Position numbers and translations under genes: made by a program. From the NCBI GenBank assembly GCA_964036045.1, contig OZ038383.1, positions 13,160,430 to 13,224,429 of the forward strand: a DNA stretch of 64,000 nt, in the 5' to 3' direction. Below, piece by piece: positions 32,747 to 62,632 of the stretch. The stretch comes from Eutreptiella sp. 'Long Island Sound 2002'. Lineage: Eukaryota > Euglenozoa > Euglenophyceae > Eutreptiales > Eutreptiaceae. Positions within the stretch are counted from its first letter, which is position 1. Each line of letters begins with the position of its first letter. The notes below the pieces were generated by a model, which worked only from the letters and a program-made list of their open reading frames with translations, was not told where the DNA came from and ran no database searches.

Positions 32747-32764
32747 GCAATGAGCCTAGTGTAT
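32747..32764. repeat. LINE-2 target-site duplication, right copy
   Basis: Identical 18-mer to 28317-28334. In Gypsy-3 frame it encodes AMSLVY. Confidence 0.95.
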
Positions 32765-36496: not shown

Positions 36497-36512
36497 GGTA
36501 GGTAGGTAGGTA
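36497..36512 (-). repeat. GiantLINE 3' tail, (TACC)4
   Basis: Plus strand GGTA x4 directly abutting the target duplication; read in element sense it is a TACC microsatellite tail, a common 3' end of non-LTR elements. A short microsatellite instead of poly(A) implies a specific RT start site. Confidence 0.75.
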
Positions 36513-37069
36513 TCTTCGGGAGCTCGGGATGCCTCCTTTGACATTGCAGGAGGAAGGTCTTACCAAGGGGACGTCCTGTCCCTCCCACTGCCCTATGTCA
36601 GGTGCCTCTTGAGCCGCTCCCGCATGTGCTTGGGAAGGCATTGTCGCGGCCACCCGGTCCATGTGTCCCAGGTCGGAGGGTGTCCCCACATGTGTCCATG
36701 GGTAGGGCCACATGCCCCCTCCTTTAGGCGGCAGCTCTGGGGGCTGCCCAGCCGTGTGGAGCATCTCTCACCACAAGGGATATTGCTCCCGCTAGTCTAC
36801 GGTACGACCGCCTCACCCTTGTGGCTTGAGTTGCGGAGCCACTCTGCTTGGCAGGCGACCCCCTCCTGGACTGTGTACCGGCTCGCCTGTCACCGGTTGC
36901 TTCCATGGCTCCGGCTGACGTTTGCCATGGTCCCCGATGCAGCCTTGCCGGGCTCGGACCAGTGGCCTTGGAGTACCGCTCCTGCCACTGGCCCGGTGGG
37001 TCGCCTGGGTCGCCCCAGTGCGTCCGACCCATGGGGTGTTGGTTCTTTCCTGTCCCTCGGCCGCCCTAC
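36513..37069 (-). other. GiantLINE distal 3' UTR
   Basis: About 0.55 kb of unique GC-rich sequence between the 3' minisatellite and the tail. No convincing gene; long open frames reflect base composition. Confidence 0.5.
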
Positions 37070-37860
37070 GTGTGTGCAGTGTCCTGGGCCGCTTGGCTCC
37101 TGTTCACCGGTGTGCCCGCGCGGTTTGCTGTGTTGCGTCTGCGGTGTCCTGGGCCACTTGGCTCCTGTTCAGCGGTGTGCTCGCTCGGTGTGTTGTGTTG
37201 CGTGTGCGGTGTCCTTGGCCACTTGGCTCCCGTTCACCGGTGCGCCCGCTGAGTGTGTCGTGATGCGTGTGCGGTGTCCCGGGCCACCTGGCTCCTGTTC
37301 ACCGGTGCGCCCGTTCGGTGTGTTGCTTTGCGTGTGCGGTGTCCTGGGCCACTTGGCTCCTGTTCACCGGTGTGCCCGCGCGGTTTGTTGTGTTGTGTCT
37401 GCCGTGTCCTTGGCCACTTGGCTCCTGTTCACCGGTGTGTCCGCTCGGTGTGTTGTGTTGCGTGTGCGGTGTCCTGGGCCACTTGGCTCCTGTTCACCGG
37501 TGTGCCCGCGCGGTTTGTTGTGTTGTGTCTGCGGTGTCCTGGGCAACTCGGCTCCTGTTCACCGGTGTGTCCGCTCGGTGTGTTGTGTTGCGTGTGTGGC
37601 GTCCTGGACCCCTTGGCCCCCGCTCACCGGTGTGCCCGCTCGGTGTGTTGTGTTGCGTGTGCGGTGTCCTGGGCAACTTGGCTCCTGTTCACCGGTGCGC
37701 TCGCTCGGTGTGTTGCTTTGCGTGCGCGGTGTCCCGGGCCTCTTGGCTCTTGTTCACCGCCGTGCCAGGCCCTGGTGTCTCGTCCCTTTGTTGCCCTCGG
37801 TGCACGCGCGTGTGCGGTGTCCTGGCCCTCGTGGCGCCCGTTCACCGGTGTGTGCGGTGC
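37070..37860. repeat. 65-bp minisatellite in the GiantLINE 3' region
   Basis: About 12 copies. The unit contains TGGCTCCTGTTCACCGGTG followed by TGCCCGC[GT]CGGT and a GTGTTGCGTGTGCGGTGTCC tail, with CACCGGTG palindromic. Period 65 bp, so all three plus frames stay open; the resulting ORFs are artefacts. The unit is clearly related to the larger array at 60300-62495 and has the same orientation. Confidence 0.9.
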
Positions 37861-37920
37861 TGTTTGCGGTGCGCGTGTGCCATTGGTGGTTGTGTCCCTC
37901 TTCCTCCCCCCCTAATTTTC

Positions 37921-37969
37921 GTTCTTTTTTTTTCTTTTTTTTGGACCGAAAAAAAAAAAAAGAAAAACA
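37921..37969 (-). other. U-tract/A-tract hairpin in the GiantLINE 3' region
   Basis: Plus strand has a T-rich run (37922-37942), GGACCG, then an A-rich run (37949-37969). In element RNA this is a U-rich arm, a short loop and an A-rich arm of about 20 bases each, just upstream of the 3' minisatellite. Confidence 0.6.
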
Positions 37970-39864: not shown

Positions 39865-42416
39865 TTACCCGGGGGCTGGCCATATCTGCTCCAGGACGTG
39901 CGGGTGTGTTTGCTGGAGGTAGTCGAGGGTGCGGAAGAAGCATCGCTGGATGCCGGGCATCTCCTCCTCTGTGAGGTGGGGGTAGTTTTCGGTGGGGGTG
40001 TCTGGGCCCTCCCAAAGCAGCACCATGAGGCGGGCTGCCACCATGTATGGGCAGCGCTGTAGGATGGGGGGGCGTGGGGGGGTGGGCCCCCTGCGGTTTC
40101 GGGGGGCTTCCCTCTGCTGGGGGCGCAGCGTGACCACCCACACCCACCGGTCCGTGGGGATCCCCTTGGTCCGTTGGGTCCACTTGGCGAGGCAATACAT
40201 CGCCCTACCAAGGCCCTGGCTGCCGCTGCGGATGGAGAGCAGCGTGTGGAGGGATTTGCGTTCCCACGTGCCCCAGATGTGGGGGTCGTCCGGGTCGTCC
40301 CCCCTGGCGTACGTGTCGAGGCCTGGGCTGTGTGGGGGGGGGGCGTAGTCGGCGGGGAGGAGGGAGTCGGTGCCGTGCACCACCCAGTGGTCAGTTGGTG
40401 CGTGGTAGTGGGTGGTGGAGAGGGTGTAGTGCAGATTGTACATGAGAGTCATGTACGTGGAGGGGGTTGGCTGCCGGTCGTTGGGGATGGGGATGTCTGC
40501 CGGGACGTGGTGCCGGAAGTTGCTCAGGGAGGCCATCCGGGCTACCAATGTTTCCCGCTCCCACTCTTTGGTGTTGTCGGGGGTGGCGCTGGGTGGGGGG
40601 TGGGCCATGTTGGGCTCGCGGTAGCGGGTGCGGCCCTGGGTGCTGTCTCGCTCCAGCACGGGGTGTCCGACTAGGTGTCCCCCCCAGTCAATGGGGGGCA
40701 CCCAGATCCGGCTCCCCGTGGGGGGCGGGCTCTCGCCGTCTGGGGTGGCGCGTGGGGGGCGGTCGTGTCGGGCGACGTGCAGGAAGGCGTCGAAGAGGAA
40801 GTTCCGGACGCCTTCCCCCAGGGTGGCCGCCTGGACCAGGGTGGTCGCCCGGATGCACTGGGTGGTGCTCGAGGTGCGGAGGCACAGCACGTCCTGGTCC
40901 CCGAGTCCCCGGAGGTGCTGCCGTACCGCTGCGGGGTTGTGTAGGGCGTAGCATTCGGCCGGTGCGGCGGCTGGTGGTGCGGGGTGTGATGGGGGGGGTG
41001 GTGTGGGTTTTGGGGGGTGGTCGTCGTTGTCGCGTGTGGGGTCCGGTGATGGGGTCTCTTGTGGCGGTCGCGGGAGGGGGGATTTGCAGTGGCGTGTGTC
41101 GGCGGGGGCATCGACGTCAATTGGCTGGTGCTGGCTGCCGCTTGTTGCGTCCGTGGCCTGGTCTCAGGGGGGGGGGGGGCGGGGGGGGGGGTGGTGTGGG
41201 GGTGGCACTGTTGGTGGGTGGGGGGGGCGGGGGTGGATGTTGTGCTGGCTCGGGGTCTGGCCGTCCCTGTGGGTCGTGTGGGTGTTGCGTCTGTGCGCCG
41301 TGCGGTCCTTGCGGTTCTTGACTGGTTGTGGTGCCGGGGTGTGGGTGGGAGGCGGCCGCATGGGAGTCCGGGTGGGGCTGTGGTCCGTATGTAATGGGTG
41401 GCTGCTGGTGGATGGTGCTCGCTGGTATGGCGTGTGGGAGGGGGGGCTGCTGGTGGTGGTGGGGCAGTTCCTACTAGGCCCTGGTGTTGCTGGTGTGCGT
41501 GTGCGGCTCCCCGTGGGTCCATGGGGGTGTACCGTGGCTCGTGTGTCGTGGACCCGTGTAGTGGGGGCGGCGGGTGGTGCTGGACCGCGTGCCAGTGGTG
41601 TTGAGGGTGAGCTGGTTGTGTGTGGTACCCCGGCGTTGGTGGGTGTGGTGGTAGGGGCTGGTGGTGGTGGAATACGTGATGGTGTGGTGCGGTGATGTGT
41701 GCCATGTGGGGTCGGTGGTTCGTGGGGCCTGGTTGTGCTGGGGCGTGGTGGGGATGTAGCTGGTGGGGGTCGCTGTAGCATGGGGGCATTAGGGGGTAGG
41801 GGTTGGGAGGGACGGGGGCGAGGTGGTGGTGTTGGTGGTGCCATGTCCCCTGGCTCTGCGCGTATGGTGGTCCTGGCATGGTGTGGATGTGTGCGGGCCG
41901 TGGTGGCTGACTGGGCTGCAGGGTTTGGGTGCTGCGGTACGGTGGTGGTGGTGGACGCTGGCGGGGGCGATGCTGTTGATGTGCCCCGGGGGTCTGGACG
42001 TGGGGTGGTGCGGTGTGGCTGGACCCGGGCCCTGGTCGGGGCGTCGCGCCCTGCTGGCGGGCACGCTGGCGGGCCCCCTGACCTGTCTTGGTCTTCTTGG
42101 CCTGGTGGGTGTCGGGGGCGGGTGAACCCCCCTGTCCCCGTGGGGGCGACGGGGAGCGGGCGTGCCAGCGGTGTGCCTCTCGGAGGCTCGTCTCGAGGCC
42201 TCTGACGTAGGTGCGCTGGTCCGTGAGGCCCATCCGTGTGGCGGTGGCCTCGTCGGGGGCGGCCAGGTGGGCGTCCCGAAACGACGCCCAGCCCTCCGGG
42301 GGTTTCAGTTGTGCGGAGTGGGGGTGGTGTGCCGGGTAGAGGAGTGCGCTGAGTGGGAAAGGTGTTCCTTTCCGTCGGCCGAGAGCGGTGTTGAACCGGC
42401 TGCAAGTGATTTAGAG
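39865..42416 (-). pseudogene. GiantLINE ORF3 region, middle part
   Basis: From 42416 the frame reads FNTALGRRKGTPFPLSALLY, then PEGWASFRDAHLAAPDEATA and RMGLTDQRTYVRGLETSLRE, then a long Pro/His/Thr-rich stretch to about 41000. Frame shifts in C-runs lead to 40890-39865: CLRTSSTTQCIRATTLVQAA, GVRNFLFDAFLHVARHDRP, RIWVPPIDWGGHLVGHPVLE, YMTLMYNLHYTLSTTHYH, MVAARLMVLLWEGPDTP. The latter 340 residues look like a folded domain with Trp/His-rich blocks. I recognise no family. It is contiguous in frame with 44390 upward once the hAT is removed. Confidence 0.55.
42409..42416. repeat. hAT target-site duplication, left copy
   Basis: ATTTAGAG, matching ATTTGGAG at 44390-44397 in 7 of 8 positions. An 8-bp duplication is the hallmark of hAT. 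Confidence 0.85.
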
Positions 42417-42786
42417 CAGGGTTGGTACCGAACGGCGTTCATGAACGCCTACCGTCCGGGAACGCGTACTATCCGGTATTAATACCGCACAGTACGTGTG
42501 CGGTATTGAGATGGTGCCGCAGACAGGCACCGCATTGCAGCACGCGCGCACGCTAGACGGAAAATTGCCAGATGAATTGAAATATTGCGAAAAACACGCT
42601 GCTGGATCGAAAGTTTACTACCGATGTTGGTAATTAGCATTATTATGCATTACGGCACCACTTTTAGTCTTGAATCGTAATGTCGCAGTTTTGGGAACAT
42701 AAGAACGAATTCTGCTAATACTAGTATTGTTGTGACCGCGTTGCAGATGCGCATTCAGCGGTGCATGAGTTATCAGCAGCGGTGCC

Positions 42787-43389
42787 GTGTACGCTGAGAA
42801 ACACTGCTCGCAAGGTTTTAAATCCCTCCTTTTAGAAGGGCCATGTGAGGACGTGCTCGTGCAGGACGCGTTCAAAGCCGTGCACAAGGACTATCGGAGA
42901 AGCACAAGCTGTGCAGGACGCGTGCAAAGGCTTGGACAACAAACGAAGAAGTACGTGCCGTCCTCCACAATAAAGTGGGCCCTCCTCCGCGATCAAAGGA
43001 TGAACGCGTCTACGCGAATGGCGCGCGCTCAGACGACGACACGTGCAGACGCGTCAACGCAACCCCAGTCCCCACAAATGGACGAAGACGCGTCGTTGAA
43101 CGATTATTGGGCAGAGGTGTTCAACCGTCAATGGGACATGGAGCGCTATGCAGAATTTCAGTGGTTGTGTGAGCGAACGCAGATGCCCTGTGTTTCTGGG
43201 AAACAATGGTTGCAGCTTGGACGATATAGGCAGCATGTGTTGATGCGATTGCTTCGAAGCATGGACAAGGCTTCAAGTGTTGCTTGCGCAGAACATGGCT
43301 CCTAGGAGCAGTGGGTTTCTGGAGGAGCACTTCACCTTTTCCGTTGCCACAACGACTGCAAGGACAGGAAAGGACTGGAAGTGTAAAGG
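42787..43389 (+). pseudogene. hAT transposase remnant, N-terminal/unknown part
   Basis: An open stretch to 43305 (172 codons) contains LNDYWAEVFNRQWDMERYAE and CVSGKQWLQLGRYRQHVLMR. No BED zinc finger or catalytic Asp motif is seen. By position it belongs to the transposase, but it has been shortened and shifted; only location supports the call. Confidence 0.4.
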
Positions 43390-43942
43390 GTGAAAGAACT
43401 GGTATCTGAAAGGTGGAAATTCTTGCATGTGCCTGTCCACAGTGCTGCCTACTGTTTCAATCATCAGCTCATGTCACCTGATATGGACCCTCTCAGTGAA
43501 AAAGAAATTCGTGATGACCTGAACAAAGTGTTTCAGGCCTTTGTGGGCCAGGAAAAAGTGGCACAGGCCAGGTTGGAGTATCAATCCTTCCTGATGCGAT
43601 CTGGGGAATTTTCTGAGCCAGCACTGTGGGACGGGGGGGGGTCTGACCATGAGCCCCCTGATGTGGTGGCAGGCCTTTTGTTATGATAATGCAACATTGC
43701 GTGAGTGTGCACTGCGAGTGTGTTCTGTAGTCAGTGTTGCGTCTTCAGCAGAGAGAAACTGGAGCATTTTTGGGTTCATACACTCCAAGGCCAGAAACAG
43801 ACTGTATGCAGGTAAAGCTGAGAAACTGGTGTACATATACAACAATATGCGCATGCTGCGCAAGGTACGGAACCCTGATTTTCAGGAGCCGTGTGTCCTA
43901 CCATACGAGAGTGACTCTGATGAAGAAGACAGTGTGCAGTAA
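43390..43942 (+). pseudogene. hAT transposase C-terminal dimerisation domain
   Basis: 43649-43942 reads MSPLMWWQAFCYDNATLREC, then VASSAERNWSIFGFIHSKAR and NRLYAGKAEKLVYIYNNMRM. This is the hAT dimerisation region with its W-rich and S-AERNWS motifs. The preceding frame (43390-43686) has EIRDDLNKVFQAFVGQEK. They join by a shift in the G8 run near 43630. The ribonuclease-H-like catalytic core is largely missing. Confidence 0.85.
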
Positions 43943-44389
43943 AGTCGATGTTAAAGCATTCTTTGTGCCTGAGGTGCAGGGTAGAGCTGAAAAGTCATTT
44001 GTAGGGTGTTTTAAGAAACATTGTCTTTTTGGCTGAGCTGCAGGCAGGGTAGTGCATAAAAGGGAACAAACAATTTAAGGTGTGAAACATTTGCAGGGTG
44101 TTTTGAGAAACATTTAAAACCAGAGAAGTGTTCCTCCGATGCTTGCCGGTTCACATTTTGAGGAGAGGTTGAGGACAAAAGCTGCATCAGGTCTGTGGTG
44201 ACAAATATTTGTTGAAATTTTCTGGTGTTTTTGGGACAAAGGTTTGGTTGTTGGAATCAGCTTGAATATATCGTAACACCAAGGAATCCGGACATTTAGT
44301 GGTGCCTCCTGGGCGATACCATACAGGACACCGGAGTACTGTATGGTATCGATACCGAACGGTACACGTACTGTATGGTACCAACCCTG

Positions 44390-44397
44390 ATTTGGAG
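44390..44397. repeat. hAT target-site duplication, right copy
   Basis: ATTTGGAG; see 42409-42416. Confidence 0.85.
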
Positions 44398-45072
44398 GTA
44401 GGCTGCTATCCTTTCTGGTGCCGTGTCCGCCCACGCTTCTGGTGTCAGGGCTGCTGCTTGGGGGGCCGGGAGTTGTGGGTCTGGGAGGTGTAGGTCACGG
44501 TGGTGGAGGTATAGGGCGAGGAGGATGTGGCGGGCCGCCACGTTCAAGCCGCCTGCGCTGTGGCGTAAGGGTGGGCTGTGCGGGGCCAGGGGTGTGCTGC
44601 CCGTGGCCACGTCTATGGTCCATGCGTGGTCCGCCGCGTCCGCCACGTAGTACCCTCCCAGGTGGTCCTGGAGGGTGTCGGTGAGTGGCCCGAAGAGGCT
44701 GGGGTGGCTTGCGGGGGGGGGGGGCACGGCTGGAGACGCGGGCCGCTCGGGGTGGTGGGGGTTGAGGTCCCCGCAGTGGGGGCAGTGGGTGAGGCGGTGC
44801 GCGGCTCCCAGGCAGACCCAGTGGTCTGGGTTGCAGGGCAGGGCCGTCTGTGGTAGTCGCTGGCGTACGCAGAGGGGACATGCGGTGGCTGGCGGTTGGT
44901 GGTACCTGTGGACAGACTGTGGCTCGGGGGGATGGGGGCTGGTGGCGCGGGCATGCTGGTTGGCGTGTGTGCGGTGCCTGTGGTGCCCGTGTGTGCCGTG
45001 CCAGTGTTGTGCTCGGTGGGGGGTGTGTAGGCCTGGTTGGGGTTCCGTGTTGGTATGTCACGGGGTAGGTTC
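44398..45072 (-). pseudogene. GiantLINE ORF3 region start, RING-like finger
   Basis: In the same frame as the RNase H region, past TGA codons at 45073-45075 and near 45058. A Pro/His-rich segment precedes CPLCVRQRL, then PCNPDHWVCLG and THCPHCGDL (44880-44773). Spacing C-x2-C-x11-C-x3-H-x2-C...C-x2-C fits a RING finger with seven of eight ligands; the sixth Cys is absent, with a His two residues later. Then FGPLTDTLQDHLGGYYVADA and LNVAARHILLALYLHHRDLH. A RING would suggest ubiquitin ligase or RNA/DNA binding; that is inference. The hAT follows at 44389. Confidence 0.5.
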
Positions 45073-46440
45073 TCATGGTTGGTAGAACAGGGGTTTGAGG
45101 AGGTGGGCTTGGTCTGTTTGGGGCAGGGTTGCTGCATGCTGCAGGTATTTGTGGGTGCGGTATGTGAGCTGCTCCGCTGTCTTGGCAACGGCCGTCCGCT
45201 GCATGTGCGCCGCCGTGGCCTGGGGGTCCTCCGCGTGGGTGCGTAGCAAGGTGTAGACGGCAGTGGGGTCGGGTCCCCTGCGGACCGCCTCGAGTACCTC
45301 CGTCTGCTTGAGGACGGTGGTGAGTTGCTGGGTCGCCGGGGACTGCGTCAGCCATCCGGCGTGCTGGGCGATGGTGTGGGCTGGGTTCCAGTCTGTGAGG
45401 GTGTCCAGTCCTCTGTACAGGGGGCACACCTTGAAGTGATCCCAGGTTTCTTCTTCCGCGTAGCCACAGATGCATTTCGGGTATCCTGCGGGGACGTGGA
45501 TCGAGCGGCGCGCATACCATCGGTGGTATCGGCTGAGGAGGGGACGCTGTTCGAGGGCGAGTTGGAGTCGAGGTTCTTGTAGGTGTGCTGAGAGGCTATC
45601 TGGGCGCAGGGCGGAGTAGTAGAGGGGGGTGTGGACGGACTCTTCGAGGCGTTAGAGGAGTTCGGTGTTCGCTGGGTGGCCCAGTGTGGTGGCCAGTTGC
45701 TGGATGGGTGTGGGGTAGTGGTACTGCTTGTCTCGATCTGTGTACGGCGTGTCCTCGGGCATCCATTGGGGGGGCTGTGTGGCCGGGGGTATCGGGGGCA
45801 GGTGCTGCAGGTGGCTGTGGTTTGGGGTGTCCAGTCGCACGTGTTCGAGCCCTGGGGTGTGGCTGGTGTTCTGGTGTTTGGCCTGCGTGTCTGCGTGTCC
45901 ATTGCCGTATGCGTAGCGGTGTGACTCCTGTTTGACGGTGTGTAGGGCGTCCTGGGGGTGCATGCCCCTGAAGGCCATCCATAGTCCCAACGCTTGTGTG
46001 GTGAGGCGGGACTCGAGTGCCTTGTGGAGGGGCAGGTCTGCAAGGCGCCTGGTGAGGTGGATGTCGACCGTGGCGTCCACGACTACCCAGATGTTGCGGG
46101 GCCGGGTCGTTGTGGGTGGCGGTGTGGCGGTGACGGCGTCTGCCATGGTGCGCAGTTCGCCGTAGGAGGACGCCCGAAAGATGGTTGCCCCGGTGTGGTG
46201 TTCCACGTGGAGGCCGTCCGCGTGCCGGGTGATGCGCACGGAGGCGCAACCGACCGTGGGGGTGCGTTGCTGGGTGCCTGATGCGTCAGTGAAGTAGATG
46301 ATGTCGGTGTCGCTTGGTATGGGTAGGCGGGCAATTGCTGTGGGGTGATAGACGTAGATGGGGTTCCCTTGGGCGGTTCTGGCACCGATTTGCGTGGGTT
46401 GTAGTAGCGGCGCTGCATAGACGCCTATCCCCTAGGTGAT
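45073..46440 (-). pseudogene. GiantLINE RNase H and C-terminal zinc finger
   Basis: DIIYFTDASGTQQRTPTVG (about 46305-46250) carries the first RNase H Asp. ASSYGELRTMADAV gives the Glu, RNIWVVVDATVD the second Asp, and YAYGNGHADTQAKH near 45900 the His-Asp pair. After a TAG (45652-45654) the frame continues to YPKCICGYAEEETWDHFKVC (45480-45425), a Cys/His finger in the place known from LINE C-termini. The frame ends LLKPLFYQP-TGA at 45073. A TAG at 46432-46434 separates it from the linker upstream. All stops are in one frame. Confidence 0.85.
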
Positions 46441-47976
46441 GATGGCCTGGGCTCGTGCAGTGAGGCGGAGGAGGCCCCTGTCTGGGCGCCCCTGGGTGAT
46501 ATACGCGTACATCAGGTCGAGGATGTATCCCGTATTGGGCCGGAACTTCTGGCACGTGATGGTCTGTCGCCGCTCTTTGTCGTCTTTGTCGCCGCGAAGG
46601 GTGGGGCATTCGTGCTGTAGGGGGCGCATGGGTGCCTCCTGAGGTCCTGCGCGGTGTGGGTCGCAGCGGTCGTACTCTATGGCCACGCTGTCCGGGTCTG
46701 CCTGCTCGTTGGTGAACGTCCATGTCGCCGTGGGTGTTCGGGTCCAGGCTACGTGCGCCGGGTGGTCTGGGGGTACCGTGTGAAACCAGGGGGAGAGCCA
46801 TGCCTGCTGGTCGGCGGTGGCGGCGGCGGTGGGGGTGTGGTAGTGGGTGAAGATGAGGTGTAGCAGGGGCCACGGAGTGTCGAGGGCTGCCGGGCCGCAG
46901 TGCCAGCACGTGCGTGGTATGCCCTGGTCACTGTGTCTGACTGGTGGTACATCAGTCTCCGCTGCATTGTGTTTGGGGATGGACCAGGGGGCATGGTGTC
47001 GCTGGACAGTGCGGGTAGCATGTTTGTGGCCGTTTGGTGCTAGTAGCAGGATGGTGGGTGGTGTCCAGCCTTCAGCTGACGGGGTGTGCTCCTCCTGCGT
47101 CGTGCCGCCGTCGTTGGGGGTCTTGTGCTCGCTCGGGCGGGGCCGGGGGTGCTGGCGCTGGAAGGGTTTGTACGCGGTGTCAATGTCCTTGGGCGCCGGC
47201 ATGTCGCGCCCTGCCTTCGCAGCACATGCGCGGAGGTACGCTTGGAAGACGTGGCGTGCTGGCCATTGTGTGTCAGAAAGGAACGGGGCGTGGTGGGCGT
47301 CGCACTGGGCCATGATCCTCATCTGTGTTGGGGTGATATACACTATGGTGACGGTGGCCCCCACGAGGCGCAGGGTGTCCACCTCGCCTGCCGGTTGTCG
47401 GTGGATGTCGGTGTGCGTGGCCACGAGTGGCCCCTGTTGATCGCAGTGGTGGTTTGTCAGGATGGCGTGCGTGTGGTGCGGTAGGAGGAGTTGTAGCTGG
47501 GCTCAGATGCCAGTGCCCACGGAGGTGGAGACGCCGTGTTTGGCCAGTTTCCACCGGGGGCAGGTGTTGCGGGCCATTTGCGCTTCTTTTATGCGTATGG
47601 CTTCCGCCTCGCGAACTTCAGGTTGGTGGTTGTGTGTCACCCTGTGTAGGAGGTGCGCTGCGTGTTTGGCATAGGCCATGTCGACCAGAGCGCCTGTATT
47701 GTCTCCGTAGTAGCGCCAGTGGGCCATCATGGCCTCCTTGGGGAAAGACGTGAGCCAGCCTCCGTGTTGCGCCCATGCCTTTGTCACCTGCTGTCGAGCG
47801 ACGCGTAGGGCGTCTTGGGGGCGCGGGAGGTGCAGGGCTTGGTGGCCGATGGCCGCGTTGAGCACCGCTTCCATGAAGTACGCCGGGCCCTGCGTAGACA
47901 GGAGGTCCCCCCTGGCAATTTGGGGTAGCCGGGCGAGGCTCTCTTCCAGCTTGCTTGGGAGTGTGATGTGGTGGTG
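46432..47976 (-). pseudogene. GiantLINE RT thumb and linker to RNase H
   Basis: One frame with in-frame stops at 47977-47979 (TAG), 47503-47505 (TGA) and 46432-46434 (TAG). The first part (AYFMEAVLNAAIGHQALHLP) resembles the RT thumb/connection. The second (47424-46435, 330 codons) has TCWHCGPAALDTPWPLLHLI and RPLQHECPTLRGDKDDKERR and no assigned domain. The size of this insert between RT and RNase H is unusual for LINEs. Confidence 0.6.
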
Positions 47977-48998
47977 CTACGTGGCCTGTGTGACTCCCAG
48001 GTGGACTGTGGTGTCTTCCAGGTGTAGGGGTTCACCTTTCCAGATGTGGGGGGTGGGGGTCCTGGCGTCGGCCAGCCCAACCAATTTGCGGGGGTGCACT
48101 AGGAGCTGGTGGGCGTCGAGGTAGGTTGTGGTGAGTTGGAGAATGGCGGACGCTTGCTCGGTGGTCGTAGGTAGCCCTGCGTTCTCAGGGTCGCGGTGGC
48201 GGGTGGCCGTAGTTAGGAGGTTGTCGTCCGCGAAGTTGATGAGGGGGGACCGTAGCGGGTATGGCGCGTACCCCGGGTATACCCGTGCTAGCTCGAATGC
48301 CAGTGGTAGGGTGACGAGGAGGTAGAGGAAGGGGCCTTGGGCGCCTCCCTGAGGGACCCCGCTGTCTGTGCCGGTCCAGAGGTGAGGCCTGCGGCTGTGA
48401 TGACGGCGTAGAGTCGGGGCTGGATGTACCCGGTCATGAAGGATAGGAATCGGAGGCCCATGGCATCCCATACCTCCGTGAGGAGCCGGTGTGGGGCGTG
48501 GGGGAACGCGCCTCGGACATCGAGGGAGGCGATAATCATCTCGTAGGGGTTCATGTCTAGTGCGGTGTCCTGGAGGAAGATGGCCTCGTGGGGGGACCTG
48601 CCGGCCATGGCTCCCCACATGCTGGCGGGCACGTGGGCAAAGACCGCCGGCGCGATGCGGCCTAGGATGAGCGTCCACACCAGCTTGACCTCGGTGGTGG
48701 CGCAGACTATGGGCCGCCAGTTCCCTGGCTGCGCCCAGTCCCCCTTTTTGTAGAGGGGGTGGACCAGGTTGGCCCATTCAGGGGGGATGGGCGTGGCGCC
48801 CGTGACGATGTCCCACAGGCGGGCTGCCAAGCGGCGTTTGACGGGCAGGGTGAGGCGTTGGTACGCTTCGGCCGGCAAACCGTCAACGCCTGGCACGACC
48901 CCCTTCTTCAGGCGGTCTAGGGCACGTTGCAGTTCTGAGATGCTGAAGGGGTCGTGTTCGATGGCGCGCCGCTGTTCCCGGTTGAAGACCGTGGGCAC
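47977..48998 (-). pseudogene. GiantLINE reverse transcriptase
   Basis: ISELQRALDRLKKGVVPGVD near 48930, then LVHPLYKKGDWAQPGNWRPI and MIIASLDVRGAFPHAPHRLL (catalytic Asp near 48520). A frameshift near 48378 follows. Then SGVPQGGAQGPFLYLLVTLP and LINFADDNLLTT with the catalytic Asp pair (about 48240), then HPRKLVGLADA and HLGVTQAT. All core motifs are recognisable. The domain ends at TAG 47977-47979. Upstream TAG at 49002-49004 separates it from the endonuclease in the same frame. Confidence 0.88.
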
Positions 48999-49001
48999 AT
49001 G

Positions 49002-50396
49002 CTAGCAGATGGTGTTTCTGGTGTGGGGGTCGAGCTCGGGGAGGGCGTCCCCGTGTTGTGCCTGGAAGCTGTCCAGAACTGCCTGGAGGACGGCGTCGGG
49101 GTCATTGGTGAGGCCTCCCTCGGGGGTGCGCACCGCGTGTATGGTACGGCGCCCCGTTTCCTCCAGGATGCGGCTGACGTACCGCAGGGACTTGTACGGC
49201 GTGTCGTTTCTGCGGTATCTTTCGCGTTCCTGGGCTGTGGCCGCTATGCGATGGGCGGGCCATTCCTGGAGTTGGTGGCGGCGGGTGGTGAGGAGCGCAC
49301 GGAGGTGGGCGTCCCGGTCTCGTGCCTCCGGTGTGCTGGGGCGTAGCAGGGTGGCGAGTTCCTCTTTCGTGGTCCAGATGTCATGGACGAGTTGTTGGAG
49401 GCCGAGGTCTGGTGGTGCTCCCGCGTGGCTGGTGTCACGCTCCATGTCGCATGCTTGTGCCGCCCGGCGCATGGCGGTCGTGAGTGTCGGTGTGTCCGGG
49501 CGGCGCAGGATGGCATGTAGGGCCCTGTTATACTTGTGCCAGGCACCGTGGTCGTCCTCGGCCGGGAACTGCAATGTGGGTGGGAGGCTGTCGTCTGGCA
49601 GGGTGGCCGCGGGTGGGGGTAGGTTGGGGATGATGAGGTTGATGTAGAGGGGTCGGTGGCCCGTGCCTGTGGGCGGGAGGTCCCCGTAGGCTGCTTCGTG
49701 GACGCGCACCGTGGTTGGGTCCCCGTAGCACGTGTTGATGCGGGATGGGTGGGTGCCGGCTTGGTGGGGGTATTGGGAGGGTGTGCCGGTGAGTCCTGCC
49801 GTGAGGTCGGTGAGGCCCAGTTGGTGCATGGCGTTCCGGACAGCTATGTCGGTGGCTGTGGATGGGCCGGTGCGGTCGTCGTCGGTGGGGGCGGCGTTTA
49901 GGTCGCCTATGATGATGGTGGGTGCCAGGAGGGAGAGTCGGCGGTACGCCAGGCTCAGGGTGTCCAGGAAGTCCTTGGTCTCCTCCCCGAATGGGACCTG
50001 CGTGAGTAGCACGTTTAGCTGCCATCCGGGCCCGACGCATTCGTACGCTCCGAGTCGACCATCCACTCCGAGGTCGGGGTGGGCATGCACCGTGACCGAC
50101 GTCTTGCGGTAGAGGGGCACCCCCCGTTGCCTGTGGGCGTGATATTTGTTCCCCTCCGGGTCCAGGATCGGTGCAGGTTCCGGTTGGTCCGCTCTGCGGA
50201 GGGCTTGCTCCAGGAACCCCAGGAGGTCTGCACCTTGGGGGTGTGGCCCGGGCATGGCTTGCAGTGTGGCGGCCTTGGTGGGGTCGTAGGTGACCGCAGG
50301 CTCGTTGAGGATGTTGATGCGGGCGTGGGCTTCCGCGGGTGCCGGTTTCTGGGGACCGGTAGTTTGGAGGGCGGGCGGTGTCCGGCCCTGGCCCCG
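49002..50396 (-). pseudogene. GiantLINE apurinic-type endonuclease and linker
   Basis: The nick-making domain of target-primed reverse transcription. ARINILNEPAVTYDP (about 50324) is the N-terminal strand, then GVPLYRKTSVTVHA, DLGVDGRLGAYECV and LNVLLTQVPFGEETKDFLDT. Next come APTIIIGDLNAAPTDDDRTG (GDxN motif, about 49905), SRINTCYGDPTTV and GTGHRPLYINL (the final His). The acidic catalytic Glu is in the N-terminal part and not securely placed. The linker to 49002 includes TRNTIC-TAG. The frame upstream is shared with ORF1 through TGA 50397-50399. Confidence 0.85.
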
Positions 50397-50413
50397 TCAG
50401 GCGTCGAGGAGGT

Positions 50414-50593
50414 CGATGACGCCCTGAGCTGCGGGTGCTCTGCGGTTCCGCTTCTGCGGCTGGGGTAGGGGCCATGCATTGTGGACTTCGCCCGTGTACT
50501 CGGCGCCGGTGAGGTGCTCCGTGTCGGGGGTGCACAGCTGCATGGGGACCATCTCACGACCGGTTCGGTCTCGCCAGAGTTCGATGGTGCGCC
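50414..50593. repeat. 180-bp duplication, left flank of PLE
   Basis: Matches 51900-52079 over 180 bp with about six differences. Codes on the minus strand for RTIELWRDRTGREMVPMQL and onward to AAQGVI, a piece of GiantLINE ORF1. Confidence 0.9.
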
Positions 50594-50728
50594 TGTAGTT
50601 AATAAAATCGCCTTGGATGTTTTCACCCTTGTTGTTGAAAAGCAAAATGCACAAAGTTAATGTCGAACTTTTTAATCACGGTGCAAAAGCATATAAAACA
50701 AACGTCCAACACTTCCAAAGTGTTAAAG

Positions 50729-50761
50729 TACGCGTTTCGCCTCCAGAAGAGGCCTCCTCAG
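50729..50761 (-). ncRNA. candidate hammerhead ribozyme of the PLE
   Basis: The minus strand reads CUGAGGA, then stem II GCCUC-UUCUG-GAGGC, then GAAA, then CGCGUA. These are the invariant hammerhead core (CUGANGA...GAAA), a stable stem II and the very short stem III typical of PLE hammerheads, with cleavage expected after the A of GUA. Stem I would be AGG/CUU plus UGUU/AACA across an internal loop, which is weak. PLEs are known to carry such ribozymes. Confidence 0.45.
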
Positions 50762-51141
50762 CCTGTGTACAACATGAAGAAAGATGTACATGGGACACAA
50801 AATAAAAATTCGAAACCTATGGGTATAGGGTTAGGAATTGACTATGTCACATGGTGGGAAATCTTGAAATGGATTCCCCCCACATCAAAACTTCATGTGG
50901 GTAAGCGATTTAACAATAGCTGCGCCAGAGTCGTGAAGACATCGCTCCTGCTGTGCTGCCGCGTCCTGTGCTTTGTGCGCGCACGCTGTATAAACAGCGC
51001 GCGCGAGCAAAACAGAACAGAAAAATTAGCATCTCGCAGGATTCTGAGCAAAGGATTGAACAGAACAAGAAAAGCCGCATCGAACGCAGTATTCTACAGT
51101 CAGATCCGTGACAGACGAATTTTTGCGTCGCCGCACGCTCA

Positions 51142-51899
51142 TCATAGCTCCTCCTTTAATGCTTGCATTCGCCTTGCGTGGAACAAAATGCGTAAATTGG
51201 GCGATGACTTCAAAGTGACTCGCACTTGCAAACTTGGTATTGACGGTAAGAGTTTATAACGAATACGGGAAATCATTGCACCCCATGGAATAGGCATAGA
51301 AGAATGAAATGGCACTCGAACAGCGTGCACAATCTCATTTACTTTGCCACGATCATGCACATACCTCCTCCTGTCACTCCATTGTCTTGGTGCCTTACGC
51401 CATGCATGTTTTGGATAACCTAGACGCATGAGAGCTCCTTGTAGTCTAGACCAACATGCATTGAAACAGTGTTCATGAGAACACAATCGTAAAAAACGAA
51501 TGCATTCGCCGGTGACCCACCCCAATTTTACATGCCGTGGTGTGTTTGAGCCCCACGAGATATAAGAACATGTGTGGGTTGGTTTAAAGTACACACTCGT
51601 TTCAAGTGGCTTCACCTTGACAATTAACAAATCCATGTAGGGGATGTTAGTCATGCGATTGAATGCTTCAAACTCTACCATCAAATGTGGAGGGTAAAGG
51701 CTTTGAATATCATGCAACAATTGCTCGCGAGTAACATTAGGATGGTGGAGGACAAGACCGTCATCAATGAAACGAGTCATGACATGGGAGCTTGGGGATG
51801 GGACACGGCTTTCATAAAACCGTAGCACCAAATTGGCCCATGTGGGCGCGGCATTAGTGCCCATCGCCCACCCCGATAGTTGAACATATACACCACGTC
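51142..51899 (-). pseudogene. PLE reverse transcriptase, C-terminal fragment
   Basis: LSGWAMGTNAAPTWANLVL is RT motif B'; VMTRFIDDGLVLHH near 51780 is the catalytic box. VEFEAFNRMTNIPYMDLLIV follows, and KPTHTCSYISWGSNTPRHVK with GECIRFLRLCSHEHCF is the PLE-type thumb. Fingers and the first catalytic Asp are missing, so the copy is 5' truncated at the 180-bp repeat. The frame accidentally continues into the ORF1 repeat. It is otherwise free of stops for about 250 codons, suggesting a recent insertion. Confidence 0.88.
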
Positions 51900-52079
51900 C
51901 GATGACGCCCTGAGCTGCGGGTGCCTTGCGGTTCCGCTTCTGGGGCTGGGGTAGGGGCCATGCATTGTGGACTTCGCCCGTGTACTCGGTGCCGGTGAGG
52001 TGCTCCGTGTCGGGGGTGCAAAGCTGCATGGGGACCATCTCACGACCGGTTCGGTCTCACCAGAGTTCGATGGTGCGCC
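51900..52079. repeat. 180-bp duplication, right flank of PLE
   Basis: See 50414-50593. This copy has TGA where the left copy has CGA (ELW-stop-DRT against ELWRDRT), a C-to-T change after duplication. Confidence 0.9.
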
Positions 52080-55000
52080 CCACCTTCTTGTCGTTGGGGG
52101 TGGCCGGGTCCCACTTGACGTGGATCTTGAACCCCTGGTAGTCCCCGGTGACGAGGTACCGGTGCTTGACCTCCCCTGCGGCCCATATCCACTTGGAGGG
52201 GCCCGCGGCCGTGGCGTACTCGAAGGGCAGCTGCACCCGGGTACCGATGGCGTATTCAGGATACAGGGCAGCGGCTTCCTCTTTGGTCCAGCTCTTCGAC
52301 TTGGCTCTTGGCTTGGGCGCGGGTTTGGCCTGTGCGGGGGCCTTGCGCTTCTGCGCACCTTGGCGGCGCCGGGCAGCGGGTTGTCCCTGTTGGGGAGGTG
52401 CGCCCTGGGGCTGCTATACGGGTGCGTGGCCCGGTGCAAACACGGGGTGTTCGCGTGCGGCTGGGACGTCGGGCTTGGACGTGGGGATGGGGTCCTTCAG
52501 CTGGAACACTTCCTTGGTCATGAGGCCAAGCACTTCCTCGGCCTCCTGCAGGGCGTCGGGCGGGTCTGTGGGCCAGGTGTGGAGCCGCCGCCCGGTGCCT
52601 GCCCCGTGGCGGCGCATGTGGGCCGTGTAGCGGGTGGCGTGGCGTGTCCACGCTGGGGTGCGTTCCGGGGGGAGGGGGCCTTCTGGCGCCCCCTGCGCCC
52701 AGTAGAGGGCGTAGTGCAGCGCTTCCCAGGCTGCCTCTGGGGCGTGGGAGATGCCTGCGGCGAGTCGCAAGCGGTCCCCTCGGGCGTGGTGGGGGCGGGA
52801 CCTCGTCGTCAGGGGCGTGTGCCGTTGCCCGTCTGACCTTGCTGTGGTCGTCCCATTCCACCGTCCACCAGGCGTCCCGGTGTTTGAGGATGAGGACCTC
52901 CGTGGTGGTCGGGGGGGCGTCCATGGCGTCCCAGCTGACGAGCTGGATGGGGCGGACTTCGGGGTGGGTCTTCGGGGGTGCTCGCATGTTGAGGATATGG
53001 TGGATGTCCTCGGCGGTAGGGCCCGTGTCGGTGGCGTCCTGCGCTGCCTGGGCTAGAGCTGGGGAGGGGCGGTCCTCCCAGAGGCGGGAGGCGGACGCCG
53101 TGGCGTACATGGCTGCGATCAGGACGTGTTCCGTCAGCCCTTCCACAATGAGGTGGTTTTCCCCCTCCAGGTCTCGGGGGATGGTGGCTTCCGCCTTTAG
53201 GGTGAGGAGTGCGATGGCGCGTTTGGGTCCAGGTGTGGCGTGCGTCGGCTCATCTGGCGGGCGTCCGTCGGATGGGGAGTGGGGGGGGCGCTTCTGCAAG
53301 AAGGATGGTCCCACCGCCAGGTGCTCGACAAGGTGTAGCGGTATGGCGTGGTGGCGGTCCGCTGCGGGCAGGAGGTAGGGGTGTGGGTCCCCGGGTATAG
53401 TGCCGAGGAATATGCCCCCCCTGTAAGTAGGGGTGGGCAGGGGTTGCTGCAGAGCGCCTGCGCATGGTAGCGCGCACCGGGGGTTGCAGTGGGTGCATTG
53501 GGCTGTTATGGGGTGCGGTACCGCGTACACGGTGAGTGGCCCTACCGCGCGCTGGATGTGGCGGGGGATGATGGTGCGCAGGTCCCCCACCCGTTCCGTG
53601 CGGCTTTCGCCATAGTATATCCAGAGTGTGTCCTCCAGTGCCGTTTTGGGGCGTAGCTTGCGGGCCAGTAGGTTCAAGGTGCTTTTGTGGGTGGCCTCGG
53701 TGACGATGCTGGGTCCAGCGTTAATGCGTGGGAGCAGGTGGTTTTGGTGGTGTGCCGCGGCCCTTCTGCGGGCTGTGTGGAGGGCGGTGCTCTCGGCGGG
53801 GGGGGGCGCGTGGTGGGTGGCCCTTTTGCGCGGGGTCGGGGCGACGTGTAGTGGGTGATTCCATGCCAGGTGCGGGTGGTGTTGCGGTGGCTGGAGGCCA
53901 GGGTAGGTGGTGAAGGTGTATATGGTGACGGGGGAGCGCTCATGCGTGGCCTGGAGGTAGTAGTGGTCGCGACCCGTGTTGTGGGTGACGATGACGTTTG
54001 GCGTTGGTATGTCGTAGTGGAGTGCGGTATTGGGGAGTTGTTTGGTGATGCGTGCCGTCGCGTCCCCCGTTTTGGGCGCGGTGTTGTGGGGCACGAGGAT
54101 GTGGACGGCCAACGCATCGTGGGTAGGGAGGTCGAGGTCCGGTAGGGTGGGATGAATGGGGCGTCCCCGGAAGTGTGCGAAAGCTGGGTTGTGACGTGCC
54201 GCCGTTTCTTTGATGATGGATGGTGCCCTTGGGGGTGACGCCCCAACTTGCTGGGCCATAGCGGCGACGGCGTGGGCGATTGCTGTGAGGTCTGGGCCGA
54301 TGCCAGGCTTGTCTGCCGGTGGCTGCAGGCCCCCTTCTGGTGCGGGGTGGTGCCACCATAGGGTGTAGCCCTTTTGCGTGTTATCGTCGGGGGTGTGCAC
54401 GAGGCCCTGGTGGTTGGAGATGGCAGTCTTGAGGGCTTTCGCTGCCTCGCGGTGGGGGGTGCGCGCGTAGGCCCAGACTCCGGTTGGGGGGGCCGCCCCA
54501 GTGTGGGATTCGGCCGTGGTGGGGGCCGGCTCAAGGGTGTGACTGGTGAGGGAGGGTCTGTGCAGCCCTTCGTGCAGGGAGGCGCACACGTGTGCCCACC
54601 TGTCCGCCCATCCCTGTTGGGCGCTTCCTGTGTCTGCCCCTGTGGGCAGTCGCACGATGACCACGTGCCAGGGGTGTGACCCCGGTACTACGGTGGGGGG
54701 TGTGGTGTGCTCGTGAGCGTGCAGCCATACTGCGGTGTCTGCGTTCGCCGTCACGTAGTCCTCTCCCTCCGCTACGTGGACGTTTTTAACGGCGGCCTCT
54801 CCCTCTAGGGTGAGGAGGAGGTGTGTGCCGGGGGGCTGCGTGTGCGTCTCCGCGTCCCGGAGCCACAGGTACGTGAGCGCCACGGTGCCGGGGAGGATTT
54901 TCCCCCACGTGAAGGTGCCTTCGGGTGATGCCCACTGCAGGGGCAGTGTGCGGCGTCCCCGCGAGTCGTTGGTGGCATGGTAGTCGTGGGGGAGGTGACG

Positions 55001-55720
55001 TTTGGTGAGCCGGTGCGGCATGCGTTCGGTGGTGGCTGTGGGGGGGTCCCAGTTACATTCCTCCGGGGGGGGGTGCGTCTGCGTCGTCCTCCTGGGGCTG
55101 GGCTAGCGGCAGCGCCTGTGCATTGGGTGTGGCGTCGGGTAATCCGCTGTGTGTGAGGATGTAGAAGCCCTCGGGGGTGAGTTGGAGGACGATGTCCCAC
55201 TTCGCCGTCTGCTCTGGGGACCACTGATGGGGTCCGTCCTGCGGTCGGTGGAGGCTGACCTGGTGGCCCCATCTCCAGCTGTGGTAGGCGAGGAGGCTGA
55301 GGACGGTGTCTTGCTCCGGGTCCTCCACGCTTTCCACGTATGCCGTCATGTCGGTGACGTCGACGGCGTACTCGTCCTCCCATTCTTGTGTGGGGGTGCC
55401 TGGAGAGGGGGGGGCGGTGGTGTACCCGTGGAGCCCCAGCCCCGTGACGTCAGGCAGGTCGTGCTCGAGGGACGCCCGGTACTCGGCGGGCCCTTTGCTG
55501 GCTTCGTGGGTGGGGTGGTGGCGCCGCAGGGCGTTGGACAGGTGCGTCCAGGGCGCCCGCTCGCGGGGGGGGGGGGGCGCGGGGGGGCATTATGCGGGCT
55601 GGGGTCCGCAGGGCCGCTTGCTGCGGGCTCGAGCTCCGGTGGGGTGAGGTCCATATGATGCTCCGTGTCCTCCGTGTGTTGGAGCTCCAGCTCTAGCAGG
55701 CTGTCGATGTCCAGGGCCAT

Positions 55721-59322: not shown

Positions 59323-59800
59323 TCACGCGTCCCGCCGGACGGCGGCTGTTCCGTAGCCGGCAGGGGCTGGGTTCACTGCCGGGCGCACAAACGTCCCTCC
59401 GGACGGCGCCTATTTCGTAGCCGGCAGGGGCTGGGTTCACTGCCGGGCGCACACACGTCCATCCGGACGGCGGCTGTTTCGTAGCCGGCAGGGGCTGGGC
59501 TCACTGCCGGGCGCACACACGTCCATCCGGACGGCGGCTGGGTCGTAGCCGGCAGGGGCCGGGTTCACTGCCGGGCGCACACACGTCCATCCGGACGGCG
59601 GCTGTTTCGTAGCCAGCAGGGGCTGGGTTCGCTGCCGGGCGCACACACGTCCATCCGGACGGCGGCTGGTTCGTAGCCGGCAGGGGTTGAGTTCACTGCC
59701 GGGCGCACACACGTCCGTCCGGACGGGGGCTGTTTCGTAGCTGGCAGGGGTTGGGTACCCTGCCGGGCGCACACACGTCCATCCGGACAGCGGCTGTTGC
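59323..59800. repeat. 64-bp minisatellite, about 7 copies
   Basis: Successive ACGTCC starts at 59391, 59455, 59519, 59583, 59647, 59711 and 59775 give an exact period of 64 bp. The unit includes ACGTCCATCCGGACGGCGGC and TCGTAGCCGGCAGGGGCTGG, then GTTCACTGCCGGGCGCACAC. It contains a near-palindrome CGTCCATCCGGACGGCG. Copies are more than 90% alike. It differs in sequence from the 65-bp array. Confidence 0.95.
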
Positions 59801-60299
59801 GCTGTGGAGAGTGCGGGGCTTGGACTTGTTCTTGGCGGCTTGTTCGTCGTCGGGTGTGGGTGTTTGCCTTGGTGGTGTCGTGTTTTGTGCCGTGGTGCGT
59901 GCTGGCGTGCGGTGCTGCGCGTGTGCCCTGCTTGGCCTGCGTGTGGCGCGCGCTCCTTGCCCGGGCGTGCTGTTGCGCAGGCGCGGGGAGACACCCTCTC
60001 TCTGGCGGGCCCGTTTGGCTCCATGGCGGGCCCCGTTGGCGCCCAGCTGTGGCCCGGTGCGCGGCAGTGGGGTGTGTGTATGTTGGGGGGGGGGGGGGGT
60101 TTGGTTCCTCTCCCCTCGCCTTCCCCGCCTTGTCCCTCTGTCCCTCTTCGCCGGCCCGCCCTGCCTGCCTACCCTCTTCGTACCCGCTGGGTTGGCCTTG
60201 GCTGGACGGTTGGTCTCGGTGGTCTGACATGGTGCTTCTTTCCTGCATGGCGGCGTGGGCTGGGTTCGTTTTGGGGGCGGGTTGCTCGTGTGGTGTGCC
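59801..60299. other. unique spacer between the two 5' minisatellites
   Basis: GC-rich, with a G14 run near 60088. No gene. Confidence 0.5.
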
Positions 60300-62495
60300 G
60301 TGCCGCGTGTACGGTGTCCTGGGCCTCCTGGCTCCTGTTCAGGAGCGTTCATGCCCTGTGTGTGGTGTTGCGTGCGCGGTGTCCTGGGCTGCTTGGCTCC
60401 TGTTCACCGGTGTGCACGCTCTGTGTGTGGTGTTGTGTGTACGGTGCCCTGGGTCCCCTCGCTCCTGTTCACCGGTGTGCACGCTCTGTGTGTGGTGGTG
60501 CGTGTACGGTGTCCTGGGCCTCCTGGCTCCTGTTCACCGGTGTGGACGCTCTGCGTGTGGTGTTGCGTGTACGGTGTCATGGGCCTCCTGGCTCCTTTTC
60601 ACCAGTGTGCACGCTCTGTGCGTGGTGTTGCGTGTACGGTGTCCTGGGCCTCATGGCTCCTGTTCACCGGTGTGCACGCTCTGTGTGTGGTGTTGCGTGT
60701 ACGGCATCCTGGGCCTCCTCGCTCCTGTTCAGCGGTGTGCACGCTCTGTGTGTGGTGTTGCGTGTACCGTGTCCTGGGCCTCCTGGCTCCTGTTCACTGG
60801 TGTGCACGCTCTGTGTGTGGGGTTGCGTGTACGGCGTCCTGGGCCTCCTGGCTCCTGTTCACGGGTGTGAACGCTCTGTGTGTGGTGTTGCGTGTACGGT
60901 GTCCTGGCCCTCCTGGCTCCTGTTCACCGGTGTGCACGCTCTGTGTGTGGTGTTGTGTGCATAGTGCCCCGGGCCCCCTGGCTCCTGTTCACCGGTGTGC
61001 ACGCTCTGTGTGTGGTGTTGCGTGTACGGCGTCCTGGGCCTCCTGGCTCCTGTTTACCGGTGTGCACGCTCTGTGGTTGGTGTTGCGTGTACGGTGTCCT
61101 GGGCCTCCTGGCTCCTGTTCACCGGTGTGCACGCTCTGTGTGTGGTGTTGCGTGTACGGTGTCCTGGGCCTCCTGGCTCCTGTTCACCGGTGTGCACGCT
61201 CTGTGTGTGGTGTTGCGTGTACGGTGTCCTGGGCCTCCTGGCTCCTGTTCACCGGTGTGCACGCTCTGTGTGTGGTTTTGCGTGTACGGCGTCCTGGGCC
61301 TCCTGGCTCCTGTTCACCGGTGTGCACGCTCTGTGTGTGGTGGTGCGTGTATGGTGTCCTGGGCCTCCTGGCTCCTGTTCACCGGTGTGCACGCTCTGTG
61401 TGTGGTGTTGTGTGTACGGTGTCCTGGGCCTCCTGGCTCCTGTTCACCGGTGGGCACGCTCTGTGCGTGGTGTTGCGTGTACGGTGTCCTGGGCCTCCTG
61501 GCTCCTGTTCACCGGTGTGCACGCTCTGTGTGTGGGGTTGCGTGTACGGCGTCCTGGGCCTCCTGGCTCCTGTTCACCTCCGTGCACGCTCTGTGTGTGG
61601 TGTTGCGTGTACGGTGTTCCGGGCCTCCTGGCTCCTCTTCACCGGTGTGCACGCTCTGTGTGTGGTGTTGCGTGTACGGTGTCCTGGGCCTCCTGGCTCC
61701 TGTTCACCGGTGCGCACGCTCTGTGTGTGGTGTTGTGTGCGTGGTGTCCTGGGCCGCTTGGCTCCTGTTCACCTGTGTGCCTGCTCCGGTGTGCTGTGTC
61801 GTGTGTACGGCGTCCTGGGCCCCTTGGCTCCGGTTCACCGGTGTGCACACTTTGTGTGCGGTGTTCTGTGTGCGGTGTCCTCGGCCTCTTGGCTCCTGTT
61901 CTCCGGTGCGCGTGCTCTTTGTTCTGTGTCGTTTGTGCCGTGTCCTGGGCTTCTTGGCTCCTGTCCTCCGGCGTGCCGCCTCTGTGTGCGGTGTCGTGGG
62001 TGTGGTCTCCTGGGCTTTTTGGCCCTGTTGTGCTGGTGTGCTTGTGTGGTGTGTGTTGTGTTGTGTGTGTGGTGTCCTGGGACACTTGGTTCCTGTTCTC
62101 CGGTGTCGCAGTGTGTTGCAGTGTGTATGGTGTCCGGTGTGCGGTGTTGCTTGTGCGGTGTCCTGGGACTCCCGGCCTCTGTTCACCGGTGCGCACGCCC
62201 GGTGTGGGGTCTTGTGTGGGTGGTGTCCTGGGCCGCTTGGCTCCTGTTCACCGGTGTGCTTGTGCGGTGTGTTGTGTGGTGTGTGCGGTGTCCTAGGCCA
62301 CTTGGCTCCTGTTCACCGGTGTGCCCGCGTGGCGTGTGTTGTGTCGCGTGTTCGGTGTCCTGGGCCCCGTGGCTCCCGCTCAGCGGCGTGCTGCGTGCTT
62401 GTTCGGTGTGTTGTGTGTTGTGTGCGGTGTCCTGGGCCACGTGGCTCCTGTTCACCGGTGTGCGTGCTCGGTGTGTTGCGTGGTGTGTGCGGAGT
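60300..62495. repeat. 65-bp minisatellite in the GiantLINE 5' region, about 34 copies
   Basis: Exact 65-bp steps (ACGCTCTG at 60481, 60546, 60611, 60676, 60741, 60806 and so on). The unit is TGGCTCCTGTTCACCGGTG, then TGCACGCTCTGTGTGTGGTG, then TTGCGTGTACGGTGTCCTGG plus GCCTCC. Copies are nearly identical in 60480-61700 and diverge towards 62495, as expected if central units were recently homogenised. Long open frames in all three plus frames are products of the repeat. Related to 37070-37860. Confidence 0.95.
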
Positions 62496-62624
62496 GGGTG
62501 TGGGTGCGTGCTCGCGTGCGCCATACCGTTGCAGCGACGTTGCGGACTCTTTGTTTTTGTTTACACATGGACAGACACCCTGGGAATTGCCGCAGCGAAC
62601 TCGCCACTGGCATCCCGGCCACCA
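62496..62624 (-). other. GiantLINE 5' end
   Basis: The minus strand starts TGGTGGCCGGGATGCCAGTG right after the target duplication and leads into the 65-bp array. This is the presumed transcription start region, with a possible internal promoter. Confidence 0.55.
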
Positions 62625-62632
62625 AGGATAGA
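62625..62632. repeat. GiantLINE target-site duplication, right copy
   Basis: AGGATAGA; see 36489-36496. Confidence 0.9.

Follow-up and report, generated by a model that had tools for sequence, protein, structure and literature searches.

Long interspersed nuclear elements (LINEs) are usually 4-8 kb long. Those with an apurinic-like endonuclease (APE), such as L1, I and Jockey, encode the APE and then a reverse transcriptase (RT) downstream of a first open reading frame (ORF1), carry a simple 3' tail, and show target-site duplications and 5' truncation. Dualen/RandI has a large multi-domain LINE protein with an APE. Among telomeric elements, one account puts HeT-A and TART at 6-14 kb and also describes repeats common to the 5' and 3' untranslated regions (UTRs) of TART (PMC5537684). 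Terminons, giant Penelope-like elements of bdelloid rotifers, can be as long as 40 kb and contain tandem repeats and additional ORFs, and the accessible portion of the 2019 review of giant eukaryotic transposons that covers them describes giant long terminal repeat (LTR), Penelope-like and enlarged DNA elements, with no giant LINE (PMC6431247). Here we describe a minus-strand insertion of 26,128 bp at 36497-62624 of a 64,000-bp stretch of the Eutreptiella genome (C6:13160430-13224429, hereafter the window). With a probability of about 0.88, it is a decayed and almost complete copy of a giant LINE of the APE type, which measures ~23 kb at full length without guest elements. By its anatomy and the tests made, the element is an APE-type LINE; its size and layout depart from those of LINEs known to us, and no giant, longest or largest LINE or non-LTR element of this size was found in the open-access literature.

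The insertion interrupts a Gypsy integrase frame and is flanked by an 8-bp target-site duplication, AGGATAGA, at 36489-36496 and 62625-62632. This sequence occurs three times in the window, counting both strands, against 0.73 expected, and exact identity of 8-mers at two fixed junctions has a chance of ~1.5e-5. When the insert and one repeat are removed in silico, a single frame is open across the Gypsy junction and the other two are stop-rich. The sense strand ends GAAGA(TACC)4, with the tail at 36497-36512. Neither LTRs nor terminal inverted repeats (TIRs) were found on the element: there are no inverted pairs of at least 30 bp within 36400-62700, and outside the tandem arrays, which sit inside the ends, no self-match connects the two termini. 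An LTR retrotransposon is thus excluded, as the ends differ and the arrays are internal. With guests and duplications subtracted, the copy measures 22,661 bp. The original prediction, made from the sequence alone, was of a giant non-LTR retrotransposon of about 22.7 kb without its guests, inserted once with an 8-bp duplication into a Gypsy frame that closes on its removal, and ending in (TACC)4; on each of these points it agrees with our results and is largely right.

Both ends are found at numerous further sites across the surveyed genome (2,280,300,865 bases in 2,205 contigs), as that prediction had proposed to check. A 504-bp 3' probe gave 751 first-look candidates, and the 40 that were scored were 97-100% identical. 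In 10-kb segments fetched around 20 of the 39 other scored 3' matches, the tail is always present as (TACC)3-5 and continues with T in 17, and the sequence past the tail differs from copy to copy, except for a common flank of L017 and L018. These two 3' copies (C5:61.16 and 61.14 Mb) lie 20.8 kb apart with identical flank and match pattern, and may have arisen by local tandem duplication or by duplication in the assembly. The genome contains 3,580 exact occurrences of a 29-base 3' pattern, and none of its reversed control. A 30-base pattern at the window's 5' boundary (at most 3 mismatches) occurs 205 times, again with no control occurrence. That this boundary is the family's 5' terminus, as the original prediction took it to be, was first suggested by 37 of the 40 scored matches starting at base 1. 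However, the flanks of copies at C1:42.9, 47.1, 55.7 and 85.7 Mb are homologous upstream of it, so the window copy, whose 5' end is at 62624, is 5'-truncated. In the copies at 42.9 and 55.7 Mb, similarity is lost at one common point 733 bp (733-734) further upstream, and the window copy thus lacks ~733 bp of the true 5' end. A 40-base pattern from this true start (at most 3 mismatches) occurs 112 times, against 0 for the reversed control. No Rfam match at gathering scores was found in the window or in five loci carrying 5' ends.

Pairing of ends was carried out over C1:1-61.6 Mb, where the list of 3' ends is complete; an eighth 5' end, at 61611601, lies beyond this range and was left out. Five of the seven true 5' ends have a downstream 3' end on the same strand 23-27 kb away: C1:42935870 (23.0 kb), C1:47137601 (25.6 kb), C1:55720908 (26.5 kb), C1:38826658 (26.8 kb) and C1:51780881 (27.4 kb, with another at 14.2 kb). 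Assuming an even strand split, with 50 3' ends per strand over 61.6 Mb and pairing allowed within 30 kb, at least five pairings in seven would arise by chance with a probability of ~1.7e-7. The first of these copies (copy A, C1:42935870-42958863) is 22,994 bp long. Its fetched middle 10 kb, L042, matches the window at 55639-51900, 50593-44388 and 42411-42171 with ~95% identity, so that ORF1, ORF2 and ORF3 are contiguous and free of guests. Another (copy B, C1:55720908-55747392) is flanked by TCCGGTACTAGCAAAC and TCCGGTACTAGCAAGC, 15/16 identical, a target duplication of ~16 bp. Target duplications therefore vary in length between these copies, from 8 bp in the window to ~16 bp in copy B.

Proteins also join the parts. 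In three protein database searches, with ~8,000 candidates scored in each, 119 relatives were found for the APE-RT piece (P0001 is a cluster of 425 members), 31 for the N-terminal piece (P0120, 377 members) and 19 for the third region, some of them 61-68% identical and keeping the frame in part. Their sources are almost all ENA contigs of 0.1-7.8 Mb in length. On the window, P0120 covers 55585-52292 and then 50591-50400, P0002 covers 53149-52799, 52478-51900 and 50351-47506, and P0162 covers 47202-44392 and then 42407-42309. Thus, the parts are adjacent in other copies. Two related LINE families were also seen, represented by P0036/P0040 (46-50% identity) and by P0089 (33%, standing for 352 sequences). 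P0156, a protein of an ENA contig of 6.49 Mb, covers the 3' end with its array in reverse and then ORF3 in sense, an inverted copy such as twin priming could make.

Tandem arrays lie near both ends of the element, all on the minus strand. The 3' array (37072-37766) has ~10.7 copies of a 65-bp unit, and the 5' array (60305-62492) has 65-bp units, ~28 of which match well as far as 62106, followed by looser copies; a 64-bp array is also present in the 5' region (59324-59798). For each of the two 65-bp arrays, the window copy and L035 have one and the same consensus unit, and the 5' and 3' units are 80-82% identical to each other. The arrays are therefore components of the element, and each end has its own constant version. 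The internally deleted copy L035 retains the two termini and the two arrays but measures only ~8.3 kb from its true 5' start at C1:85738804, with ~57120 joined to the 3' array. L010, also internally deleted, joins 57047 to 37204 and has no 5' terminus. The 3' end with its simple tail is constant and 5' truncation is variable: beside the window copy, C1_43.7 is truncated and stops at 50262. The copy C3_158.7 extends to 52712, where it meets Gypsy sequence. Two further copies of the inner 5' sequence lie at C6:13227606 and C6:13229897, 3.2 and 5.5 kb past the window's right end and on the same strand.

Two guest elements, both assigned by eye, are nested in the window copy. One, on the plus strand at 42417-44389, is a 1,973-bp remnant of a hAT-like transposon with the TIR CAGGGTTGGTACC. 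It is bounded by 8-bp repeats, a length typical of hAT, at 42409-42416 and 44390-44397 (CTCCAAAT/CTCTAAAT, 7/8 identical), and is missing from copies that align over its site, such as L016, L024, L027 and L042. The other, on the minus strand at 50594-51899, is a 1,306-bp remnant with a Penelope-like RT, whose ORF has no Pfam match and which is missing from C3_158.7, L042 and P0120. It lies between two minus-strand direct repeats of 180 bp (50414-50593 and 51900-52079), a duplication of ORF1 sequence with 174/180 positions identical. A length of 180 bp is unusual for a target duplication.

ORF2 (45077-50396, minus strand, ~1,773 codons) carries the enzymatic domains. The APE (Exo_endo_phos, 49698-50240) precedes the RT within this ORF. 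It scores 23.9 bits in the decayed window copy, just below the Pfam cut-off of 24.5, and 29.3 bits in the database relative P0001. The catalytic-type residues align, with SRID of P0001 reading SRIN in the window copy, a change of the conserved Asp to Asn. The RT (RVT_1, 48076-48749, split by a frameshift) scores 33.8 bits in the window copy and 59.6 in P0001 (cut-off 29.6). Its nearest relative in the PDB is human L1 ORF2p (E 2e-4), with R2 also found (E 0.006), and one scan of viral contigs with the RT piece gave no relative. A CxC...H...C motif resembling a zinc knuckle was recognised by eye at approximately 45420-45474, and RNase H-like motifs, likewise by eye, at approximately 45867-46344. 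Thus, in the predicted series of endonuclease, RT, RNase H and zinc finger, the first two are found by Pfam, and the putative RNase H and zinc finger are seen as motifs by eye. The window ORF2 is broken by one frameshift (~48380) and five stops. ORF2 is under selection, with 149 of 296 mismatches to an old copy over 48.4-45.6 kb falling in one codon phase.

ORF1 (50400-55720, minus strand) begins with an ATG at 55720, has ~1,278 codons without its guest, and has neither a Pfam match nor a known domain. What had been seen as a long N-terminal region exists, but is in fact this separate ORF, ending at a UGA at 50397-50399. ORF3 (41119-45057, minus strand), based on a ten-row comparison, is an open frame of ~730 codons without the hAT-like guest. 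It is in one frame with ORF2, with two UGA codons between them. A possible second part of the ORF3 region (39867-41470, minus strand) is in a different frame and is weakly supported as coding. Because the sense strand is only 11.4% T, open frames are cheap and are weak evidence of coding alone; for this reason we estimate that ~11-12 kb, rather than the ~14 kb first proposed, is well supported as coding, with weak support downstream of ~41.1 kb. Structure predictions gave a mean predicted local distance difference test score (pLDDT) of 27 for ORF1 and 36 for an ORF3 piece, and were not used. At window positions 41464-42408, L009, L013, L015, L021 and L022 have ~1.2 kb of unaligned sequence in the ORF3 region, a subfamily with divergent or replaced sequence.

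A composite, in which elements of ordinary size are nested or joined by chance at this locus, might be suspected, as two guests do nest in the window copy and the T-poor strand makes long open frames cheap. Such a history is nevertheless very improbable: copies elsewhere are contiguous without the guests, P0120, P0002 and P0162 bridge the parts, ends are paired at 23-27 kb, and copy B has a target duplication of its own. The contiguous copies and paired ends exclude nesting unless the assembly is wrong at all these copies. The RT part and the ORF1 and ORF3 parts do not always occur separately, which would have spoken for several insertions, and the duplications at internal insert boundaries belong to the two guests. 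Several observations weigh against a single giant LINE. The two minus-strand 5' ends at C1:49178336 and C1:57804588 (2/7) have no exact 3' end on the same strand within 100 kb. Of copies A and B, the two full-length copies with a fetched true 5' flank, copy A has no target duplication that could be found, so that the expected full-length copies with different duplications are represented by copy B but not by copy A. The 3' ends exceed the true 5' ends ~30:1, a ratio between counts with different mismatch limits, and some of the 5' ends are from deleted derivatives. Both copies in which the ORFs were examined are broken, those of L042 as well as those of the window, and an intact element was not seen. 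For RNase H in ORF2, Pfam, a PDB search and a profile comparison all gave no support. A narrower alternative concerns the ORF3 region alone, which would be a 3' segment either captured or left untranslated, with only ~9 kb of coding sequence in the element. Its first 280 codons are free of AUG, the frame changes, no Pfam match was found in the region, and the codon phases over 41.1-39.6 kb are even (24, 17, 24). However, of the 69 sites that are informative over ~45.3-41.4 kb, 36 occupy third codon positions when read in the ORF3 frame, and the frame is partly kept in the 19 related proteins, so this alternative appears unlikely.

The evidence is more evenly divided on how ORF2 would be translated. 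ORF1 and ORF2 are in the same frame, and the first AUG of ORF2, at 50255, is past the conserved Asn of the APE domain (LNEP), so that the sequence from the UGA to this residue is AUG-free. In all three genomic copies read at this point (the window, C3_158.7 and L042) the UGA is followed by CGG, and a GC stem-loop follows it; some plant viruses use UGA then CGG as a context for readthrough. P0120, P0130 and P0138 terminate at the position of this UGA. Readthrough of the UGA has, in our judgment, an even chance of being the route to ORF2. Reinitiation after ORF1 or a non-AUG start, with the unit equally real, is almost as credible. Reinitiation is known for other LINEs, the diverged database protein P0004 has Trp in place of the UGA and continues, and P0052 and P0097, of related families, start just ahead of the conserved Asn. 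GC-rich sequence also folds well by chance: the window stem (-26.0) is only ~1.2 standard deviations from its mononucleotide-shuffled mean (-22.0, standard deviation 3.3). Both other copies have a stronger stem (-30.1 and -34.5 against shuffled means of -22.1 and -24.5), which, with the shared frame and the constant UGA CGG, argues for readthrough. If readthrough extended further, ORF1, ORF2 and ORF3, split only by UGA, might be made as a polyprotein of ~3,700 residues, by a giant class of LINE whose paired UTR arrays act for the 23-kb element itself and also for the mobilisation of ~8-kb partners with internal deletions. This broader proposal is tentative, and we place it somewhat below even odds.

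Compared with the closest described systems, the giant LINE shares with L1, I and Jockey all the features listed above for APE-type LINEs, but differs from them in its length of ~23 kb, in a ~1,278-codon ORF1 without known domain, in a third coding region and in the arrays in both UTRs. Dualen/RandI is alike in its large LINE protein with an APE; its second, restriction-like endonuclease was not seen here by eye, no profile having been used. Long UTRs, with sequence common to both ends, are a likeness to HeT-A and TART. However, these are 6-14 kb long, and the paired C1 copies lie inside a chromosome arm with differing 3' flanks. A telomeric element of the HeT-A/TART kind is excluded, as the window copy is in a Gypsy ORF with a target duplication and the paired copies are at 38.8-55.7 Mb of the 201-Mb C1. 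Terminons are likewise giant retroelements with extra ORFs and tandem repeats, but have a Penelope-type RT, are endonuclease-deficient and are telomeric, whereas here an APE and a LINE-type RT are found in dispersed copies. Identity with terminons or other Penelope-like elements is excluded by the LINE-type RT and APE of ORF2, the (TACC)n tail and the varied flanks.

A transposition cycle can be proposed from this anatomy. ORF1, ORF2 (APE and RT) and ORF3 would be carried on one long RNA, preceded by a 5' region of ~7.6 kb that holds the arrays of 65-bp and 64-bp units. The APE would nick the target, and the RT would copy the RNA from the 3' end with its (TACC)n tail by target-primed reverse transcription. 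Second-strand synthesis would then leave short target duplications and frequent 5' truncation. ORF1 and ORF3 may serve the RNA particle, and the common arrays may function as promoters or as modules for template switching, and allow deleted partners to be mobilised. LINEs are usually treated as compact, and a 23-kb LINE with 112 closely similar 5' ends indicates that template length does not confine such elements to ~8 kb, and that elements of the LINE type can grow far larger than thought. How an RT can copy 23 kb of RNA is a question that follows, and the element is a natural system in which to test UGA readthrough as the route of a LINE to its enzyme. If the polyprotein and paired arrays are as proposed, the demonstrated range of APE-driven target-primed reverse transcription would exceed 20 kb. 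For annotation, repeat libraries built from fragments would divide such an element into unrelated families.

Other retroelements are found in the window outside the insertion. A direct repeat of 1.56 kb, 95% identical (5275-6832 and 15758-17314), brackets protease, RT and RNase H domains (10588-14051), and is an LTR retrotransposon with paired LTRs. A separate retroelement ORF pair on the minus strand (28442-32765) has Pfam matches to RT and, weakly, to RNase H, and is matched at 31% by the JGI protein P0117. On the plus strand, 26163-26771 matches residues 1-201 of P0078 at 81%. The remainder of P0078 is the RT of a related LINE family (54%), and this part of the window may thus be a fragment of a sister element.

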